Shown here: positions 54,888 to 64,000 of the stretch, in pieces | How positions within the stretch are numbered: the stretch's first letter is position 1 | How the letters are laid out: each line of letters starts with the position of its first letter | Source of the DNA: Gemmatimonadaceae bacterium | Lineage (GTDB): Bacteria; Gemmatimonadota; Gemmatimonadetes; Gemmatimonadales; Gemmatimonadaceae | DNA length: 64,000 nt | Direction: 5' to 3' | NCBI GenBank assembly: GCA_020851035.1 | Contig: JADZDM010000007.1 | Location: forward strand, 62,001-126,000 | Notes under the pieces: generated by a model | What the model was told of the DNA's origin: nothing | The model's database searches: none | The model's input: only the letters and a program-made list of their open reading frames with translations | Position numbers and translations under genes: made by a program

Positions 54888-55934
54888 TCAAGCATCGGGG
54901 GGCAGCCGGGGCGGCACGGGGGGCAGGCTGCCCAGCAGCGCGTCGAGCGCCGAGCTCTGGGCGGCCCGCTCGAGCAGTGCCTCCCGGGCGCGCATCGCGT
55001 CGAGGCGCGCGCGCTGCGCGTTGCGCCGGCGGCGGTGGAGGGGTACCAGCAGCGCCAGCAGGAGGAGGGTGCCGATCGCCCCGTCCGCCACGAGGGCCAG
55101 GAAGCCGAAGCTCCAGCGGGTGCGCTGCTGCCAGTCACGCTCGAAATCCCCCGCGGTGACGGCGGCAGCGCGCCGGAGCGCGAGATCGAAGCTCCCGCGC
55201 TCCTTCCAGGCCGCGAGCAGCGGGCCGAGCCCGCGCTCCCGGTCGATGGCCGCCAGGTCGGAGACCGCGCGGAGCGCGAGCGCGTACCCCGCCCTCGCCT
55301 CGCCGCTGCGCGGATTCGAGAGCAGCGAATCGAGGCCGGCAAGGGTGGGCACGCCGCGGAACACCAGCGCGGCGTTGGTGGCGAGGAAGCCCGTGGTCCG
55401 CTCCTCACCGGCGGCGTAGCTGGCGTAGCCTTCGTCGAACCAGCGGGTCGACGCGCCGCCGAGATGGTCGTACAGGGCGAGGTGCGCGAGTTCATGCCGG
55501 AGCACCACCAGCGGATCACCGGCGGACGACGGCGCTCCCCGCCCCTGCATCACGATGCGCTGCTGGCCGACGAAGGCGAGGGCCGCGGTCCAGGGAAAGG
55601 CGGACCGACCGGCCCACTCGGTGAACGTGGCGGCGTCGGGGGCGAGCATCACCAGCACGCGTGCGCCGCTGCGCGGCAACCCCGGGAAGGTGTCCCGCGC
55701 CATGGCGGAGCGCAGCAACGCGTCGGCCAGCGCCGCGTCGGGCGCATAGTGCAGGATGGTGAAGCGGCCGGCATCCCGCCGCAGCGCCCCGGGTGGTGCC
55801 GCCGGCAGCGGCCCGGCGGCCAGCAGCGCACACGCGCCCAGCGCGAGCGCGCCGCACCAGCGCCTCAGGCCACGCGCGAGGGAGCGCCTCCGTCCGCGAT
55901 CGTCACCAGCATCTCCCGGCAGCGGGCACTCCAT
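54888..55934 (-). CDS. Peptidase MA-like zinc metallopeptidase with C-terminal membrane helix
   Basis: About 348 residues. A signal-like hydrophobic stretch (WCGALALGACALLAAG, about 26-41) is followed by a domain with the gluzincin pattern VVLRHELAHLAL (HELAH at 147-151) and WFDEGYASYAAGE, where Glu168 should be the third zinc ligand. This is the layout of peptidase MA family proteins. A membrane helix near 275-300 is followed by a basic, helical cytoplasmic tail of about 50 residues. Substrate unknown. The start is uncertain: ATG 55934 lies 70 bases inside the upstream TPR gene and lacks a Shine-Dalgarno. Confidence 0.75.
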   Translation of the reverse strand: MECPLPGDAGDDRGRRRSLARGLRRWCGALALGACALLAAGPLPAAPPGALRRDAGRFTILHYAPDAALADALLRSAMARDTFPGLPRSGARVLVMLAPDAATFTEWAGRSAFPWTAALAFVGQQRIVMQGRGAPSSAGDPLVVLRHELAHLALYDHLGGASTRWFDEGYASYAAGEERTTGFLATNAALVFRGVPTLAGLDSLLSNPRSGEARAGYALALRAVSDLAAIDRERGLGPLLAAWKERGSFDLALRRAAAVTAGDFERDWQQRTRWSFGFLALVADGAIGTLLLLALLVPLHRRRRNAQRARLDAMRAREALLERAAQSSALDALLGSLPPVPPRLPPDA

Positions 55935-56950
55935 GGATTGAACTTGTTGACGTCGGCTGCCTTGCGCCACGTGGCGATCGCATCGTCGGTGCGCTCCGCG
56001 AACCAGTACACGCGACCCAGCTCGAAGCGGGCCTCGATGAGGTTCGGCCCGAGCTCGATGGCCCGCAGCAGCGCGCCGATCGCCTCGGCGTACTGCTGCT
56101 GCTCGAAGTACACGAGACCGAGGTAGAAGTGCGCGTACAGGGTGGCCTTGCGATCGGTGTCGAGCGCGATCGCACGCGTCAGCAGGGCGATGGCCTGGTC
56201 GAACTGGCGGCGCCGCAGGTGCACGAAAGCGACGTTGATGGTCGCGAGCGCGTGGTCGGGAATGCGATCCAGCACGTGGTCGAACAGGGCCAGCGCCGCG
56301 TCGAACCGCCCCTGCGACATCTGCGCCCAGCCCAGCAGCGTCTCCGCCTGCGCATCGCCGGGGTTGAGCGCGAGCGCCTTCTCCAGCGACTCCTCGGCGG
56401 CGGGATAGTCGCCGGTGGCGATGCGGCTCCAGCCCCGCTCGACGAAGGTGGAGGCATTCAGCTCGTCGATGACGCGCGGCTGCCCCTGCACCGGCGTCCC
56501 GAACGCCGAGCGGACTTGCGGGGCGCTGCGCGGGGTGGGCGTCACCATCGCCGGCGTCGAGACCACGGCCGCGGTGCTGACCGCCGCCTCGTCCTCCAGC
56601 AGCGGGTCAGCCGACGGGAACGAGACCTCGAGTGCGGTCACGGCGCCAGGGGTCTCGACGGGCGACACCGGCGCACCCACGGCCGGCGGCGCGACAACGG
56701 CCGGCGTGGCCGGCGCGGCGGGCACGAACTTCACCTTCCACCCGTCCACCAGCGCCTTCACGTCGTGCTGCAGCGCGTCGATGACCTGCGCGTGCAGCGC
56801 GACGGACCGGTGCAGGAGGAAGATCCGCTGCTTCAGCGCAAGCGCGTCGCTCGAGTCGACGCCTGCCACCGCCAGCTGGCGGGTGAGTTCGTCGACCTGC
56901 GCACGAAGGTGGCTCAGCAGGTCTTCGGCTGAGGGGGGGATGATCGTCAC
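55865..56950 (-). CDS. TPR protein with N-terminal coiled coil
   Basis: A 361-residue protein without a signal peptide. Residues 1-75 form a helical coiled coil (AEDLLSHLRAQVDELTRQLA), 80-145 a Pro/Ala/Val-rich flexible linker, and about 155-350 five or six TPR units (ATGDYPAAEESLEKALALNP, QGRFDAALALFDHVLDRIP, QQYAEAIGALLRAIELGP). It is likely a cytoplasmic adaptor. GTG at 56950 was chosen because CGGAGAG lies five bases upstream; an earlier GTG at 56971 is in frame. It is 214 bases downstream of the DUF4388-TPR gene, so may have its own promoter. Confidence 0.8.
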   Translation of the reverse strand: MTIIPPSAEDLLSHLRAQVDELTRQLAVAGVDSSDALALKQRIFLLHRSVALHAQVIDALQHDVKALVDGWKVKFVPAAPATPAVVAPPAVGAPVSPVETPGAVTALEVSFPSADPLLEDEAAVSTAAVVSTPAMVTPTPRSAPQVRSAFGTPVQGQPRVIDELNASTFVERGWSRIATGDYPAAEESLEKALALNPGDAQAETLLGWAQMSQGRFDAALALFDHVLDRIPDHALATINVAFVHLRRRQFDQAIALLTRAIALDTDRKATLYAHFYLGLVYFEQQQYAEAIGALLRAIELGPNLIEARFELGRVYWFAERTDDAIATWRKAADVNKFNPWSARCREMLVTIADGGAPSRVA

Positions 56951-57163
56951 GTACTCTCCGAAATGCGACACTGCGGCTGCCCGGCCGCGAACCCTCTGGA
57001 CGCGGCTGCTGGAAACAAGAGTATCGGCTGCAGCGATCCGATCACAGACACCGTGCGCGTGCTCCGGGAAGGGTCAGGCCGGGTCGAACGTCGGCGACGG
57101 CACGCGCCGCCACCCCCGTACAGTCGCGCCTGCCAGAATCGTGCGCGCGCATCCGGCGACGGG
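56951..57163. other. Intergenic gap between the DUF4388-TPR gene and the TPR gene
   Basis: About 213 bases with no open frame of merit. On the minus strand a weak -10 like sequence (GATACT, near 57030) is the only promoter-like hint. No tRNA, terminator or repeat was found. Confidence 0.4.
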
Positions 57164-58786
57164 TCAGGAGGCGCGGCGGATGGCCTCGAGGCTGACCTGC
57201 GCCTGCCGGTTCCCCGGATCGAGTTCGAGGACGCGCTGCCAGCACCGCTGGGACTCCACCACCTCACCGCGCTGGTATCGCAATTCACCCAGCTTGAGGT
57301 AGATGTCCGGCCCCAGGGCCGGCTCCAGCCGCACGGCACGCTGGTACGACTCGATCGCGTCGTCGTAGCGCGCGACGCGGTGCGCGAGATCCCCGACCGT
57401 CTTCTGGAACGGCGCGAGGTTCGCCGCGTGGAGCATGCCCCGCTCGACGGCGGCCGCGGCGGCGGTGAGTGCGCCGCGCGTCAGCATCAGTGCCGCGTAG
57501 TTGGCGTGCAGGACGCCGACGGAGGGGTGCGTGCGGATGCCCTCCTCCAGCAGCGCCTGCGCCTGGTCCGCATCGTCCCGCGCCGCCGCCACCAGCGAGG
57601 CGTAGTGGAACCAGATCGCCGGTGGTGCATCGCCGTCGAAGCGCGTGCGCGCCGACGCCAGCAGCTGCTCGGCACGGGCGTAGTCACCGAGGCGGAACGC
57701 GTGCAGTGCGCGGGACAACTCCACCTGCGGCAGCGACGCGCCGCCGATCTGCACCGCGCGCTCGATCATGCGCGCCGCGTCGAGCTCACGACCCAGCCCC
57801 TCGTACGCCAGGGCGAGGTGGTGCAGCATGACCGCACCCGTGTCATCGAGCTGGGCGAGCGGCTCCAGCCAGCCCACCGCGTCGTCCCACGCGCCGCGCC
57901 GCAGTGCGAGCAGTCCGAGCTGATGGCGGGCCGTCGGCTCGTTCGGTGCCGACTCGACCACCTTCCGGAACTCGCGGGAGGCATCCTCGATCATCCCCGC
58001 CTTCGACAGCGCGAGGCCCATCTTCAGTGCCTTCTCGGTGGCGCTGATGCCGGCATCGTGCTCATCGGCCGGCGCCTCGGGCTGCGTGACGGCGATGAGC
58101 AGGCCCTGCGAGTGCAGTTCGTACATCGCCTTGCCGACCGCGAACTCGCCCAGCCCGGAGCGCTCGATCACGGCGCGGATCGAGCGGCGGCCGTCGAGGA
58201 GGTGCGAGACCTCGGCGAGCTCACCGGAGAGCGGATCGGAGAGGCCGGCGCGGGCCGCGTCCATCTCGAAGACCATGTCGAAGCTCGGGAACCGGCGCTC
58301 GACCAGCGACCACTCGTCGGTGCGGCGCGCCCCTTCCATCAGCAGCGACTCGGGGTTGATCGAGACCGTGAGCTGGCGGCCGTCGGGATGCACGTCGGGC
58401 TCGAAGGTCCAGATGCCCTGCGTCCAGGTGAAGAGCGAGAAGACCGCCTCCTCGACCAGCGCCCGCAGCTCCCGGTCCACCACGTCGCGTGAGACGAATC
58501 CCGCCTCGACGAGCAGCTCGCCGAGCCGACGGCCGGGGTGCTGGAGCTGCAGGCGGAGCGCCTCGTCGAGCTGGTCGCGATTGATGTGTCCGCGCTTGAC
58601 AAGCGAGTCACCGAGGCGGTCGCGCCGGTTGACGATCGCCCCGAACGAGATCTTGCCCTGCTGGAAGAACACCGACCCGAACTTGGTGCCGTCGACGATG
58701 CTGAGACAGCCGGTCTTCTGGCCGAGCGCCAGGAGCTGCAGGACGTCGGGGAAGCTCGCTTCCTTGAGACTGCCGCGAATGGCCAT
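57164..58786 (-). CDS. DUF4388 (PATAN)-TPR protein
   Basis: A 540-residue cytoplasmic protein. Residues 1-60 are a DUF4388/PATAN domain (RGSLKEASFPDVLQLLALGQ, then KTGCLSIVDG, FFQQGKISFGAI). Residues 55-150 contain a type II secretion E N-terminal-like segment (RLGDSLVKRGHINRDQLDEAL, then RRLGELLVEAGFVSRD) and a second PATAN-like stretch (VFSLFTWTQGIWTFEPD). Residues 180-235 look like a winged-helix (LLDGRRSIRAVIERSGLGEFA). From 245 to 535 there are about eight TPR units. DUF4388 proteins are often linked to two-component and motility signalling. ATG 58786 overlaps the AAA+ gene stop by one base. Confidence 0.85.
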   Translation of the reverse strand: MAIRGSLKEASFPDVLQLLALGQKTGCLSIVDGTKFGSVFFQQGKISFGAIVNRRDRLGDSLVKRGHINRDQLDEALRLQLQHPGRRLGELLVEAGFVSRDVVDRELRALVEEAVFSLFTWTQGIWTFEPDVHPDGRQLTVSINPESLLMEGARRTDEWSLVERRFPSFDMVFEMDAARAGLSDPLSGELAEVSHLLDGRRSIRAVIERSGLGEFAVGKAMYELHSQGLLIAVTQPEAPADEHDAGISATEKALKMGLALSKAGMIEDASREFRKVVESAPNEPTARHQLGLLALRRGAWDDAVGWLEPLAQLDDTGAVMLHHLALAYEGLGRELDAARMIERAVQIGGASLPQVELSRALHAFRLGDYARAEQLLASARTRFDGDAPPAIWFHYASLVAAARDDADQAQALLEEGIRTHPSVGVLHANYAALMLTRGALTAAAAAVERGMLHAANLAPFQKTVGDLAHRVARYDDAIESYQRAVRLEPALGPDIYLKLGELRYQRGEVVESQRCWQRVLELDPGNRQAQVSLEAIRRAS

Positions 58787-60705
58787 CAGTCGGCGTCCTC
58801 GATCAGGCGGGCGGTGAGGTCGGGCCAGCGGTGCACGAAGTTCTCGGTGTCGCCCATGAGGTGTCGCGTGCCGCGCCGCGGCGCCGCGGCGCCATCCAGC
58901 TCCGCCGCCACGAAGGCCGGGGTGATCGGTGCACCGGCCAGTGCCGCCGCCGCGTGCAGGCGCCGCACCACGTTCAGGACATCACCCACGGATCGCGCCG
59001 GCCGGTCGGCGAGGTGCGAGACGACCTGGTCGCTGACGATGGTGTGGTGCGTGTCGAAGTACTGGTGGATGAGCGCCGCGCGTTGTGCGATGTCGGGGCT
59101 GCCCAGCTCGACGACGAGGCCCTGCGCGAAGCGCGTGCGCAGGCGGTCCTCGAGCGTCGCGAGCTGGTTCGGCGGCACACTCGAGGTGAGCACCACCTGC
59201 CGGCCGGCACTCTGCAGCGCGTTGAACAGGTGGAAGAGCTCATCCTGCGTGCGCTCCTTCCCGGCGACGGCCTCGATGTCGTCGAGCAGCAGCGCGCCGG
59301 CGTTGCGATAGCGCGCGCGCCACTTCTCCACCGCCCCCTCGCGCAGCGCGGTGATGAGCTGCTCCGCGAAGACCGAGGCGCCGACGCAGGCCACCGTCTG
59401 CACGCCGGCGTCGATGAGCGCGTTGCCGATGGCATGGAGCAGGTGCGTGCGACCGCTGCCCGAGGGGCCGGTGATCACCAGCGGCACGTACTGCGTGCCC
59501 GGCGCGCCGACCACCGCACGGGCCGCGCGGAGCGCGAGCTGGTTGGCGCGACCCTCGTGCAGGCCGGCGAAGGTCCACGCCGGCTCCGGGCGCGGCGGCG
59601 GCTCGATCGCGCTCACGGCCTGCTGCACCAGCGCGTGCGCCTCCTTCACCCGCTCCGGATCGCGGAAGATGGCCTGGCCGCTGAGCGAGGCATCGGCCGC
59701 CGACCCTTGCCGCTCGAGGTCGCGCAGGTACTCGACGGCGGCGCCGAAGGTGGCGAGCAGGCCGTCGACGTCGGGCGCCTCGCGCAACTGGAGCGCACGA
59801 TCGAGCACCGCCACGCTGATGCCCTCGGCCCGCCAGCGCGAGGCGGCATCGGCCAGGCGCACGCGCCACTCCTCGACCTGCTCGACCACGGCCGTCGCGA
59901 CTTCCTGCACGAAGGTGTCGTAGTCCCCCGGACGCGGGGCCGGCTCGACCTCGGCCTCGGCGTGGATGATGACGTTCGCGAGCGGCGTGTGTCCGCGCAG
60001 CCCGACCAGCCGGCGCACGTCGGAGACGCCGATGGCGGCGTCACTCATGCCCTGCAGCGCGAGCAGCCGGTTCAAGCCGCCCTGCAGCTCGCGGATGTTC
60101 GAGAAGTCCACCCGCGCCAGCTCCTCGAGCACGCCGTCACGGAACCGCGCCGCACGCTCGGCCTGGAGCTTCTGCAGGATCGCGACCCGCGTCTCGTAAT
60201 CGGGGATGCCGACGTCGACGATCAGGCCGCCGGTGAGCCGTGTGAGCAGGCGGTCGGTGACGTCGGTGATCTCGTCGGGCGGCCGGTCGCTGGACATGAC
60301 GATCTGCGTGCCGCGCCCCTGGAGCACGTTGAAGAGGCGCAGCAGCTCACCCTGCACCTCGGCGCGGCCGGTGAGGAACTGCACGTCATCCAGCAGCAGG
60401 ATGCCGGCCGATTCGTAGCGTCGCTTGAACGTGTCGAGCCGTCCGCCTTCGGTGGCCTGGTGGAACTCCTCCATGTAGTCATCGAGCGCCACGTACTCGA
60501 CGCCGAGGGAGGGCTGCTTGTCGCGCGCAGCATGGCCCACCGCGTGCATCAGGTGCGTCTTGCCGAGGCCGGACGCGCCGTACACGAAGAGCGGGTTGTA
60601 CAACACACCGGGTGCGTCAGCGACCGCCTTCGCGGCTGCGACGGCGAGGCGATTGGACGAGCCGGTGACGAACGAATCGAAGCGGAGGCGTTGATCGAGT
60701 TTCAT
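58786..60705 (-). CDS. Tandem DnaA-type AAA+ protein without a DNA-binding domain
   Basis: A 639-residue protein with two DnaA-like AAA+ modules. Module 1 (about 8-235) has FDSFVTGSSNRLAV, Walker A GASGLGKT at 43-50, Walker B ILLLDDVQF at 102-110, VMSSDRPPDEI at 136-146, and the sensor 2 block NIRELQGGLNRLL at 203-215, all close to DnaA domain III. Module 2 (about 376-600) has GPSGSGRT at 413-420, where Arg replaces the Walker A Lys, an intact LLLDDIEAV, and RLRTRFAQGL. A helical linker (about 245-370) joins them. DnaA domains I and IV are absent, as is an Hda-type clamp motif. It is one base from overlapping DUF4388-TPR. Function unknown; not a replication initiator. Confidence 0.85.
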   Translation of the reverse strand: MKLDQRLRFDSFVTGSSNRLAVAAAKAVADAPGVLYNPLFVYGASGLGKTHLMHAVGHAARDKQPSLGVEYVALDDYMEEFHQATEGGRLDTFKRRYESAGILLLDDVQFLTGRAEVQGELLRLFNVLQGRGTQIVMSSDRPPDEITDVTDRLLTRLTGGLIVDVGIPDYETRVAILQKLQAERAARFRDGVLEELARVDFSNIRELQGGLNRLLALQGMSDAAIGVSDVRRLVGLRGHTPLANVIIHAEAEVEPAPRPGDYDTFVQEVATAVVEQVEEWRVRLADAASRWRAEGISVAVLDRALQLREAPDVDGLLATFGAAVEYLRDLERQGSAADASLSGQAIFRDPERVKEAHALVQQAVSAIEPPPRPEPAWTFAGLHEGRANQLALRAARAVVGAPGTQYVPLVITGPSGSGRTHLLHAIGNALIDAGVQTVACVGASVFAEQLITALREGAVEKWRARYRNAGALLLDDIEAVAGKERTQDELFHLFNALQSAGRQVVLTSSVPPNQLATLEDRLRTRFAQGLVVELGSPDIAQRAALIHQYFDTHHTIVSDQVVSHLADRPARSVGDVLNVVRRLHAAAALAGAPITPAFVAAELDGAAAPRRGTRHLMGDTENFVHRWPDLTARLIEDAD

Positions 60706-60860: not shown

Positions 60861-61205
60861 TCAGCCGAGGCCCTGGGCCAGCCGGCGCATGGTGAGCCGG
60901 AGCAGGCCGAGGTTGGTCCACGGCTCGGCGACGGTCACGAGGAGGAGATCGCCCTGCGGGACGGCGCACACGCGGCCGCGCTCGCCTTCGAGGTGGAGGA
61001 AGCCCGGCTCGGTGCCGTCGGCGGCGGTGGCGGCGAGGGCGGCCCGCGCGTAGAGGCGCGCCGCGAGGGCGGCGATGGCATCGGCATCGGTGCCGATGTG
61101 GACGTTGCCATCGACGACGATCCCGTCCGTCCGGGAGACCACCAGTGCCGCATGGACGCCGGCGGTATGCATGAGCTCCTCGACCACGCGGTCGTAATTC
61201 GCCAT
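60861..61205 (-). CDS. Roadblock/LC7 domain protein (MglB-like)
   Basis: A 114-residue single-domain protein. The order helix (NYDRVVEELMHTA), strand pair (VHAALVVSRTDGIVVDG), long helix (DADAIAALAARLYARAALAATAA), strands (FLHLEGERGRVCAVPQGDLLLVTVA) and helix (LGLLRLTMRRLAQ) is the Roadblock/LC7 fold. Such proteins dimerise and often act on Ras-like GTPases, as MglB does on MglA; no GTPase is in the window. ATG 61205 is preferred because TGGAG lies seven bases upstream; ATG 61217 would overlap the stop of the gene above (TGATG). Confidence 0.82.
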   Translation of the reverse strand: MANYDRVVEELMHTAGVHAALVVSRTDGIVVDGNVHIGTDADAIAALAARLYARAALAATAADGTEPGFLHLEGERGRVCAVPQGDLLLVTVAEPWTNLGLLRLTMRRLAQGLG

Positions 61206-61216
61206 GACGGACTCCA

Positions 61217-62050
61217 TCAGAAGCCGTCCGCGGCGGCCCGCGCCGTCGCGACCCGGAGGAGGGCCCGCACGCGGCCGATCGGGACCTGCCGGCCGACGCT
61301 CAGCACCGTCAGCGACCCGGCAGGTGCCGGTGCCAGGGCGAGCGTGTCGCCGGCCGTCTCGAGCACCAGCGCGTGCCAGGCCCCGAGGTTCAGGTGCTTC
61401 ATCGCACGCGCGGCGTCATCGCCGACACCGGCGACGGCGGCGGCCATCGCCTCGAGCACCGCCATGTCGTCGGACGGCTGCGGACTCGCGAGCAGCAGGC
61501 CGTCGGCATCCGCCACCAGCGACCGCACGACCTCCGGCCGTGCCGGCGCCGAGGCAATGGTCGCAGAGAAGCCCGAAATGGCAGGATACGAGGCGGTGGG
61601 ATACGCCGCGCCGGTGGTGCGACCGTTCGGGATCCGTCCCGGCTCCACGCGCGTGTTCACCCTGGGCGTGAAGCGGTGCCCGTTCGGCATGCCGCCGTTC
61701 GGCCCATTGGATGCGGCCGCGCCGTTGCCGTCGGCGCCCGAATAGCGGTCGGGCGTGGGCGGTGCGCCGCCGTTGCCGTGGCCATGCGCCGGCGCCGGTT
61801 CGTGCTGCCGCGCGCGGTCCCAGTGTGCCGATGCGGCGGACAGGTCGCCGCGTGCTTCAGCGATGCGCGCGAGCACCATCAGTGCGGGCGCGTGCGAGGG
61901 GTGACGTTCGAGGCCGCGCGTCGCGAGGCGCTCGGCGGTCTCGAGGTCGCCCTGTTGCCGCAGTGCCTCGGCCAGGTCCGCGAAGACGAGACTCTGCGGA
62001 TCGGTCGCAAGCACACTGCTCCAACGGCGGATGTCGTCAGCTGCCGGCAT
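61217..62050 (-). CDS. TPR protein with a C-terminal Roadblock-like domain
   Basis: A 277-residue protein in three parts. Residues 1-82 form two TPR units (FADLAEALRQQGDLETAERL, then MVLARIAEARGDLSAASAHW). Residues 83-150 are a Gly/Asn/Pro/His-rich flexible linker. Residues 165-277 read like a Roadblock/LC7 domain: VVRSLVADADGLLLAS, a helix DMAVLEAMAAAVAGVGDDAA, strands HALVLETAGDTLALAPA and LTVLSVG, and a final helix VRALLRVATARA. It overlaps the downstream Roadblock gene region by one base and the upstream DUF4388 gene by 14 bases. Confidence 0.75.
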   Translation of the reverse strand: MPAADDIRRWSSVLATDPQSLVFADLAEALRQQGDLETAERLATRGLERHPSHAPALMVLARIAEARGDLSAASAHWDRARQHEPAPAHGHGNGGAPPTPDRYSGADGNGAAASNGPNGGMPNGHRFTPRVNTRVEPGRIPNGRTTGAAYPTASYPAISGFSATIASAPARPEVVRSLVADADGLLLASPQPSDDMAVLEAMAAAVAGVGDDAARAMKHLNLGAWHALVLETAGDTLALAPAPAGSLTVLSVGRQVPIGRVRALLRVATARAAADGF

Positions 62051-63179
62051 GGGCGGAGATCAGTTCCTGTAATTGCGCCGCAGCGTCGCGTGCGATCCGC
62101 ACCCGCGCCGCATCGGGCGCCGTTGGTGCTGCTGCAAGATAGTGCTCCCACGCGCTCAGCGCCGCACGGTACTCCCCGCGGCGGGCTGCCACGTAACCGA
62201 ACTGTTCCTGCGCCTCGGGCAGGAGCGGATCGAGCTGTACCGCAGTCCGCACCTCCTCCGCCCAGTCGTCGGGGCGGCCGAGGCCCAGCAGCGCGCGTCC
62301 GGCGAGGACGTGCGCGGCGGCATTCCGCGGCGCATGCCCGATGGCGGTGCGGGCGGCGGCGAGCGCGGCCTCGAAGCGGGACTCGGCCAGCGCCCGGCGC
62401 GCCTGCGCGGTGAGCATCGCGACGCCGGCCGTGGCCTCCCCGTCGTCCCGGGTGGCCCCCTGCGCATCGGTGGTGAGCGCGCCCAGCGCCGACCACCGCG
62501 AGATCCAGCGCGCGGTCTCGAACACGCGCATCCCTGCCGCGGAGGCGATCTGGCGGATGGTCCGGCATCCGTCCACACAGGAGAGCACCCGCCAGCCGTC
62601 GGCGGGCACGGCGAGCTCCCCGTCCCCGTCACAGTCGCAGACCAGCGGCACCGCGCCCAGCGACCCGATGCGGGCCTCGATCGCCGGCCACTCGTCGCGG
62701 CGACGTGCCGCATCGAGGAAGAGCTCCTCCCCGGACAACGTGAGGCTGGTGGTGGGCTCGAGGGCGCTGGCGGACTCGCCGTCGGTGAAGGAGAACGAGC
62801 CCTCGTCGAAGGTGGTGAGCTCGAAGCAGAGGTCGTCGATCAGCCGCCGCGCGACCGTATCACGCATCCGGGCACTGATGACCCCGGTCTCGACGAGGCC
62901 ATCGACGAGCGAGCGTGGTGGAGTCTGGCGGCTGGCCCAGGTAGCCGCCGCGCCGCGATCGTCGGCATCCACGAGTCCGGCGTGCGTGAGCGCCCCGAGC
63001 AGCGGTTCGGGCTCGTCGTCCCAGCGCGCCGCCGTGATGGACCCGTCGAGGAATCGCAGGATCGCCCCGCGCGCGCCGGCCCCGCCGGTCACGCGGAGCG
63101 TGCCGGAGCGACGGCCACCGGTCAGCAGCTGGAAGACCTCGGCCAGCCCGAGGTCGCGAAGTGCCCCCTCGAGTGCCAT
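62037..63179 (-). CDS. DUF4388 (PATAN)-TPR protein, second copy
   Basis: A 380-residue protein. MALEGALRDLGLAEVFQLLTGG and RSGTLRVTGG with AILRFLDGSITAARWDD (1-60) are a DUF4388/PATAN domain. A second half (about 70-145) has LVDGLVETGVISARMRDTVARRL and CFELTTFDEGSFSFTDGE, mirroring the other DUF4388 protein here. A winged-helix-like part (CVDGCRTIRQIASAAGM) is near 215-245, and three TPR units lie at about 265-375. ATG 63179 overlaps the stop of the upstream TPR gene by one base. It is shorter than the 540-residue paralogue by several TPRs. Confidence 0.82.
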   Translation of the reverse strand: MALEGALRDLGLAEVFQLLTGGRRSGTLRVTGGAGARGAILRFLDGSITAARWDDEPEPLLGALTHAGLVDADDRGAAATWASRQTPPRSLVDGLVETGVISARMRDTVARRLIDDLCFELTTFDEGSFSFTDGESASALEPTTSLTLSGEELFLDAARRRDEWPAIEARIGSLGAVPLVCDCDGDGELAVPADGWRVLSCVDGCRTIRQIASAAGMRVFETARWISRWSALGALTTDAQGATRDDGEATAGVAMLTAQARRALAESRFEAALAAARTAIGHAPRNAAAHVLAGRALLGLGRPDDWAEEVRTAVQLDPLLPEAQEQFGYVAARRGEYRAALSAWEHYLAAAPTAPDAARVRIARDAAAQLQELISAHAGS

Positions 63180-64000
63180 CAGCCCGTTCCCCGCCGCACG
63201 GAATCGATGATCACGGGGGTCTGCGGCACCGCAGCATCGTCGTACTCGGCGAGCGCGAGCCGCGCCCGTGTCGCCCATCGGTTCTCGCCGTTCGCGCCGC
63301 CGCTCCGGGTGGCGACGCGCCAGTGCGCCAGCGCCTCGGACTCGCGGCCGGCGCGCTGCGCCATGTACCCCTGCAGCGTGCGCACCCCCGCATGGTCCGG
63401 TGCAACGGCGGCGGCCCGGGCGATCGCATGCAGCGCCTGCTCCTCACGATTCAGCGCGAGCAGCGCCTCCGCGAGCGCCACCAGCAGGTCCGGATCACGG
63501 GGATTGGCGCGCAGCGGGCGCACCAGCGCCTGCATGCCGTCGCTGGGCCGGCCCACATCCACGCGCAGCTCGGCCAGCGCCCGCGCGGCATCGTGGAACG
63601 TCGGCACGCTCTCGAGGGCGTGCATCAGCTCCTTCTCCGCCTCGCGGACGCGGCCATCCTCGCGCAGCATCGCGGCGAGCGCCACGCGCACCTGCGCCAG
63701 GTCCGGGTCGCCGGCCAGGGCCGTGCGCAGCGCGCTCTCGGCATGCCGCATGACGACGGACGCCGGCGGCATCGGCGCCACCGCCTGCGCGCTGTGCGCC
63801 GTGCGCGGCGCCGGCTCCATGATCGCGAGCTGCGGCCCCGTGACACGGCGCAGCGGGATCACCGGCGTGCCGTGCGTGACACGCATCGAGACAGGGGTGC
63901 CGCCGCGGCGCAGGGCCACCCAGGCCCCGAGTGGCGTGCGGGAGCGAGTGGTATGTGGTGCCTGGCGGGCCTCGGCGGACTCGCGGATGGCGGCCCGCAT
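63179..64000 (-). CDS. TPR-repeat protein, possibly truncated by the window edge
   Basis: At least 273 residues. An ATG falls exactly on the last three bases of the window, so the true start may lie beyond. The first 85 residues are low in structure, with a short strand-rich part (PVIPLRRVTGPQLAIME). From about 86 to 255 there are four or five TPR units (AESALRTALAGDPDLAQVRVA, EAEKELMHALESVPTF, QALHAIARAAAVAPDHAGV, SEALAHWRVATR). It begins the visible part of the DUF4388/Roadblock/AAA+ run and is joined to the next gene by a TGATG overlap. Confidence 0.75.
   Translation of the reverse strand: MRAAIRESAEARQAPHTTRSRTPLGAWVALRRGGTPVSMRVTHGTPVIPLRRVTGPQLAIMEPAPRTAHSAQAVAPMPPASVVMRHAESALRTALAGDPDLAQVRVALAAMLREDGRVREAEKELMHALESVPTFHDAARALAELRVDVGRPSDGMQALVRPLRANPRDPDLLVALAEALLALNREEQALHAIARAAAVAPDHAGVRTLQGYMAQRAGRESEALAHWRVATRSGGANGENRWATRARLALAEYDDAAVPQTPVIIDSVRRGTG

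Follow-up and report, generated by a model that had tools for sequence, protein, structure and literature searches.

A DnaA-like protein with two AAA+ modules encoded in a chemosensory operon of Gemmatimonadota, a candidate component of an MglA/MglB polarity pathway

The stretch of DNA analyzed here, referred to as the window, comprises 64,000 nucleotides from a Gemmatimonadaceae bacterium (GenBank assembly GCA_020851035.1, contig JADZDM010000007.1, positions 62,001 to 126,000). An open reading frame (ORF) on its minus strand, confirmed at exactly 58786-60705, begins with ATG and encodes a DnaA-like AAA+ protein of 639 amino acids plus the stop codon, which we call DnaA2. Pfam Bac_DnaA matched two stretches of this protein, with 325 bits in total. 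Module 1 (amino acids 1-235; 60001-60705, minus strand like all features described below) is of the DnaA domain III type and has all catalytic motifs; the chain begins directly with this domain. Module 2 (amino acids 376-605; 58891-59580) has Arg419 in its P-loop and keeps the box VII arginines. A helical linker domain (amino acids 258-372; 59590-59934) lies between them, and the chain ends in a tail (amino acids 619-639; 58789-58851) whose form in the window's genus, ENFVHRWPDLTARLIEDAD, diverges from the consensus. A first-pass annotation, made from the sequence alone, had described two DnaA-type AAA+ modules and a sensor 2 block in the first. Pfam, the motifs and AlphaFold bore this out: Walker A is GASGLGKT (43-50) in module 1 and GPSGSGRT (413-420) in module 2, Walker B LLLDD is common to both, and the sensor 2 block NIRELQGGLNR is found in module 1 only. 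The linker and the conserved tail had been overlooked.

The same annotation was also correct in that the DNA-binding domain, the N-terminal domain and the clamp-binding motif of Hda are missing. Neither Bac_DnaA_C (domain IV) nor DnaA_N (domain I) was matched when DnaA2 was scanned with Pfam, and inspection of the sequence found no clamp motif of the QL[SD]LPL type at the N terminus. Bac_DnaA_C was absent from the families listed for nine DnaA2 homologues, and domain IV was found in none of the homologues examined. Loss of domain IV by frameshift was rejected: a hidden Markov model built from 19 DnaA domain IV sequences matched none of the 12,945 ORFs in the 57 neighbourhoods searched; the 23 DnaA loci used as controls yielded 23 hits. 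A separate canonical dnaA with domains I, III and IV is present elsewhere in the genome (G000:C5, L032:2868-4262), followed by a gene that, by eye, we take to encode the beta clamp. Outside the window, Bac_DnaA matched a fourth time, weakly (33 bits), in a frame of 508 amino acids (G000:C4:60586-60885).

In the AlphaFold model of DnaA2, built on ten homologues, both AAA+ modules and the helical linker are predicted with confidence (predicted local distance difference test, pLDDT, about 89-91 in the linker), and the C terminus is disordered, with a pLDDT of about 36 in the tail. The predicted template modelling score (pTM) was 0.47, and the relative placement of the modules is therefore uncertain. 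Module 1 aligned with DnaA domain III (8btg) with a VIA-align Z of 30 and a root-mean-square deviation (rmsd) of 1.7 over 237 residues. Structures of p97, a double-ring AAA+ ATPase in which one chain forms two stacked rings, aligned across both modules only at an rmsd near 20 A, in a model whose module placement is uncertain. The linker had no Pfam match above cutoff, and a Foldseek search against the PDB returned no convincing match (best E = 6), which does not by itself prove a new fold; searches with the linker found only itself in its own genome and nothing in plasmids. DnaA2 shares with DnaA the AAA+ domain III fold, Walker A and B, sensor 1, the box VII arginines and, in module 1, sensor 2. 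Unlike DnaA, it consists of two modules, a helical linker and a docking-like tail, without domains I and IV, and its gene sits in a chemosensory operon, the true dnaA being elsewhere. Hda has one AAA+ module and an N-terminal clamp-binding motif. DnaA2 resembles it in being a DnaA-type AAA+ protein without domain IV, but has two modules and no such motif, and the fold similarity of module 1 to Hda is lower (Z 19).

The catalytic residues of module 1 are conserved in nearly all of 40 homologues: the Walker A Lys and the Walker B Asp in 40/40, the sensor 1 Asp in 37, the arginine finger in 36 and the sensor 2 Arg in 38. Among 41 homologues of module 2, the P-loop position is occupied by Lys in 34, Arg in 3 and Ala in 4; the sensor 1 Asp is found in 20, the sensor 2 Arg in 25 and the arginine finger in 39. 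Judged by these residues, the nucleotide site of module 2 has loosened, but its arginine finger is retained. The P-loop Arg is confined to the three members of the window's genus. Because Arg is private to this genus and Lys occurs in 34/41, family-wide degeneration of the second P-loop was rejected, and the first-pass proposal of one active and one degenerate module, which agrees with the Arg of the window's protein and with the looser state of module 2 overall, does not hold as a family rule. The ratios of nonsynonymous to synonymous substitution rates (dN/dS) between congeners, 0.05 for module 1, 0.09 for the linker, 0.19 for module 2 and 0.14 for the tail, indicate that the gene is under purifying selection.

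The two-module form was found in about 47 of the 60 genomes of the order, some copies being split by contig edges, and the gene is present in a complete single-contig genome (G023). A survey of 249 genomes of the phylum located DnaA2 in other families of the class as well, and the gene represents a conserved class-wide family of Gemmatimonadota. One scan of genome contigs, aimed at close relatives, returned Gemmatimonadaceae and other members of Gemmatimonadota, together with matches over a single region in Patescibacteria and other groups, which resemble ordinary DnaA. In a tree of AAA+ domains, module 2 formed one clade (100/99) and module 1 formed another with the single-module forms (100/99). 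All DnaA2 modules grouped together apart from dnaA on a weak branch (96/63). A common origin of modules 1 and 2 is likely, though not firm, and a recent separate capture of dnaA as module 2 is not favoured. The single-module forms branch at more than one point within the module 1 clade, consistent with module 2 having been lost repeatedly. The fixed pseudo-dimer envisaged by the first-pass annotation is possible; single-module homologues exist, and the model leaves the module placement uncertain.

In the window, the operon order is TPR, DUF4388-TPR, TPR-Roadblock, Roadblock, DnaA2, DUF4388-TPR and TPR, all recognized with Pfam. The first of these genes encodes a long TPR protein that runs out of the window (63179-64000). 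It is followed by DUF4388 (PATAN)-TPR protein a (62037-63278, the true start probably being nearer 63179), a TPR-Roadblock protein of 277 amino acids (61217-62050), both syntenic, and a Roadblock/LC7 protein of 118 amino acids (60861-61217) that is syntenic in most homologous loci. Downstream of DnaA2 lies the gene for DUF4388b, a DUF4388 (PATAN)-TPR protein of 540 amino acids (57164-58786), whose start codon shares one base with the stop codon of DnaA2 (TGATG); a TPR protein that is syntenic in many relatives (55865-56971) marks the downstream end of the operon. Genes for CheC, CheA, CheY and CheW are found upstream, just outside the window (L033). The full order in relatives is RluD-CheW-CheY-CheA-CheC-TPR-DUF4388a-TPR/Robl-Robl-MglB-MglA-DnaA2-DUF4388b-CheR-CheD-CheB. 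Neighbourhood genes were called as ORF matches, and an absence near the end of a contig or neighbourhood is not proof of loss. In several relatives, CheB is followed by an AAA_22 ATPase gene (L081:18919-19458) that appears ExeA-like by eye.

MglA was located directly upstream of DnaA2 in every locus outside the window's genus in one neighbourhood comparison. This operon MglA belongs to the Ras-like GTPases of the MglA type and shares 60% identity, over 161 residues, with the housekeeping MglA encoded by the window's genome. The gene preceding the operon MglA encodes a Roadblock protein weakly similar to MglB of Thermus. The MglA/MglB pair is missing from the operon in the window's genus, where CheW, CheY, CheA and CheC are kept. 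The housekeeping pair, an MglB-like Roadblock protein and MglA, lies directly after dnaX and recR (L102:6131-7687; G000:C25), and almost every relative has the housekeeping MglA. A second, operon-type MglA was found in 49/60 genomes, and every one of these carries some form of DnaA2, be it full, single-module, linker-only or mini. No replication genes were found in the DnaA2 operon. The suggestion of the first-pass annotation that DnaA2 works in signalling with the DUF4388 and Roadblock partners is strongly supported by this class-wide synteny, which adds CheW, CheY, CheA, CheC, CheR, CheD, CheB and MglA to the list.

The same operon position is occupied by forms of decreasing size. Besides two modules, linker and tail, there are loci with one module, linker and tail (L108, L124-L129 and the divergent L107), with linker and tail (L106 and L109; genomes G016 and G032 have linker-only forms), and with one helix and the tail, mini forms of about 70 amino acids (L103, L104 and L105; genomes G005, G007 and G008). 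The tail, with the consensus EKxVWDWPDxxxRxIEELR, is present in 50/51 loci and has a mean pairwise identity of 0.58, versus 0.19 and 0.12 in the two preceding stretches, which were compared without gaps. No other neighbourhood ORF has the motif, except for a single short match in the window that is put down to chance. DUF4388b is the only neighbour never lost (51/51 neighbourhoods). MglA is missing in 8 of the 51 loci that keep DUF4388b, and the tail is kept in 7 of those 8; MglA was therefore rejected as an obligate partner of the tail. Che genes are lost in genome G058 and family f5. One locus (L138) lacks module 2, the tail and also the PATAN part of DUF4388b, most simply through one deletion. 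Going by the parts that survive gene loss, docking of the tail on DUF4388b is the simplest interpretation, at about even odds.

These results led us to propose that DnaA2 is a DnaA-derived AAA+ family that has left replication and now belongs to a chemosensory and MglA/MglB polarity operon, most likely controlling type IV pilus motility, a reading to which we assign a probability of about 0.58. That the protein is a component of a chemosensory/PATAN/MglA pathway, taken without the output, is probable on the evidence of gene content and order. Type IV pili are slightly favoured as the output: PilT occurs in 60/60 genomes and FliG in only 23/60, and a PATAN-bound pilus motor is known from Synechocystis (PMC10519157). 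A flagellar output was rejected as a general role, since FliG is missing in about 29 genomes that hold the two-module form. Judging by the motifs, module 1 would bind and hydrolyze ATP, while module 2 would mainly bind nucleotide and supply arginine fingers. The chain may self-assemble in an ATP-dependent manner by DnaA-like stacking, although such assembly acting as a switch falls somewhat short of even odds. Held by its tail to the neighbouring PATAN/TPR protein, the assembled chain would respond to phosphorylated CheY and GTP-bound MglA by gating or concentrating the PATAN/TPR output. The window's genus has lost the operon MglA, and both module 2 and the tail have drifted there. More tentatively still, the DnaA-derived AAA+ machine could act as a nucleotide-driven switch in its own right, the third of a bacterial polarity circuit that also uses CheA/CheY phosphorylation and the MglA GTPase. 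It would work by ATP-dependent assembly, with its tail anchored to a PATAN protein able to bind cyclic di-GMP (c-di-GMP) in some lineages. The last element refers to a c-di-GMP-binding motif of the MshEN type at amino acids 57-105 of the window's DUF4388b (58472-58618), in a helical insertion of the DUF4388 domain, where NCBIfam NF053729 scored 53.8 bits against a cutoff of 38. Among six DUF4388b orthologues, three scored above the cutoff (the window's included), two below, and in one the motif was undetected; a c-di-GMP input is thus possible but not general, and the motif points to a receptor role for c-di-GMP in some PATAN proteins.

Several observations weigh against this proposal. PilT is present in 60/60 genomes and, being universal, does not discriminate the output, and 23/60 genomes, those with FliG, are also flagellated. 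A flagellar output was rejected as a general role, since FliG is missing in about 29 genomes that hold the two-module form. In family f5, which has neither MglA nor a CheA operon, only DnaA2 and DUF4388b remain of the operon, so that the links to MglA and CheA are not obligate. The constancy of DUF4388b might stem from the importance of this protein itself and not from binding of the tail, and the arrangement of the modules relative to one another is uncertain in the model at a pTM of 0.47.

Other roles were weighed against the same evidence. The AAA+ modules may be idle passengers, with the linker helix and the tail alone serving as a peptide adaptor that joins MglA or Che proteins to PATAN/TPR, as the mini and linker-only forms and the weaker constraint on module 2 would suggest. 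We regard this as unlikely: module 1 evolves under strong purifying selection, with its catalytic residues kept in nearly all homologues, and in G007 and G008 the modules were lost together with CheW, CheY, CheA and CheC and the upstream TPR, PATAN, Roadblock and MglB genes, a joint loss indicating that the modules may serve that upstream input. A protein that binds DNA or RNA through the DnaA-type single-strand surface, acting for example on pilus gene expression, is a still less likely role. The DnaA-like helix KERTQDELFHLFN adjoins Walker B in module 2 and keeps its Arg in 37/41 homologues, as such a protein would, but the matching region of module 1 is altered (His to Arg in 35/40), no homologue examined has a helix-turn-helix or domain IV, and the neighbours are signalling proteins.

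Regulation of DnaA, also suggested by the first-pass annotation, fared worst. In this case, DnaA2 would be an Hda-like replication regulator, a tandem AAA+ chain that pairs with DnaA via arginine fingers, stimulates ATP hydrolysis or blocks filament growth, and couples replication to surface signals. Its modules are closest to DnaA domain III, both retain box VII arginines, and the NCBIfam Hda model TIGR03420 scored 187 bits on DnaA2, just below its cutoff of 194.8. These similarities are outweighed by the missing clamp motif, by an operon without replication genes, by several lineages that lose the AAA+ modules and keep the locus and the tail, and by the normal dnaA of genomes that have no DnaA2 gene; we consider this role highly improbable.

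Parts of this neighbourhood have precedents. PATAN genes lie near mglA/mglB in some genomes, and Group 1 MglA occurs in Gemmatimonadetes, among other taxa (PMC4316618); the main text of that paper nowhere mentions DnaA. The DnaA2 operon is similar to these MglA-PATAN neighbourhoods (Makarova 2006; Wuichet and Sogaard-Andersen 2014) in having mglA/mglB near PATAN genes. In Synechocystis, PATAN domains are binding partners of the pilus motor PilB (PMC10519157), and two PATAN proteins have been considered alongside the MglA/SgmX pathway in Myxococcus (PMC11580455), where mglA does not adjoin the genes of its partners (PMC4316618). Like the Frz system with MglA/MglB of Myxococcus xanthus, the operon combines a CheA-type kinase with a Ras-like MglA and a Roadblock GTPase-activating protein, with PATAN and TPR proteins linked to them, but no DnaA-like AAA+ member of the Frz system is described in the literature found. 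Literature searches returned no link between DnaA and DUF4388, or between DnaA and MglA together with roadblock, none of MglA with DUF4388 under that name, and no DnaA-like AAA+ protein in a chemosensory context; the combination of MglA, MglB and AAA+ gave unrelated work only. The proximity of PATAN genes to mglA is therefore already known, the DnaA-like partner is not reported in the literature found, and no family with this architecture was found in the domain libraries searched or in that literature. If the proposed role is correct, the ATPase fold of a replication initiator was recruited into signalling and polarity control, and the series from two modules through one module and linker only to tail only tells which parts are needed.

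The similarity to DnaA has a consequence for genome annotation. The NCBIfam DnaA equivalog model, TIGR00362, scored 457 bits on DnaA2 against a cutoff of 344, which is exceeded because the scores of the two modules are summed. Since the score is above the cutoff, automated naming of DnaA2 as DnaA is to be expected, and mislabelling of these proteins by annotation software is likely.

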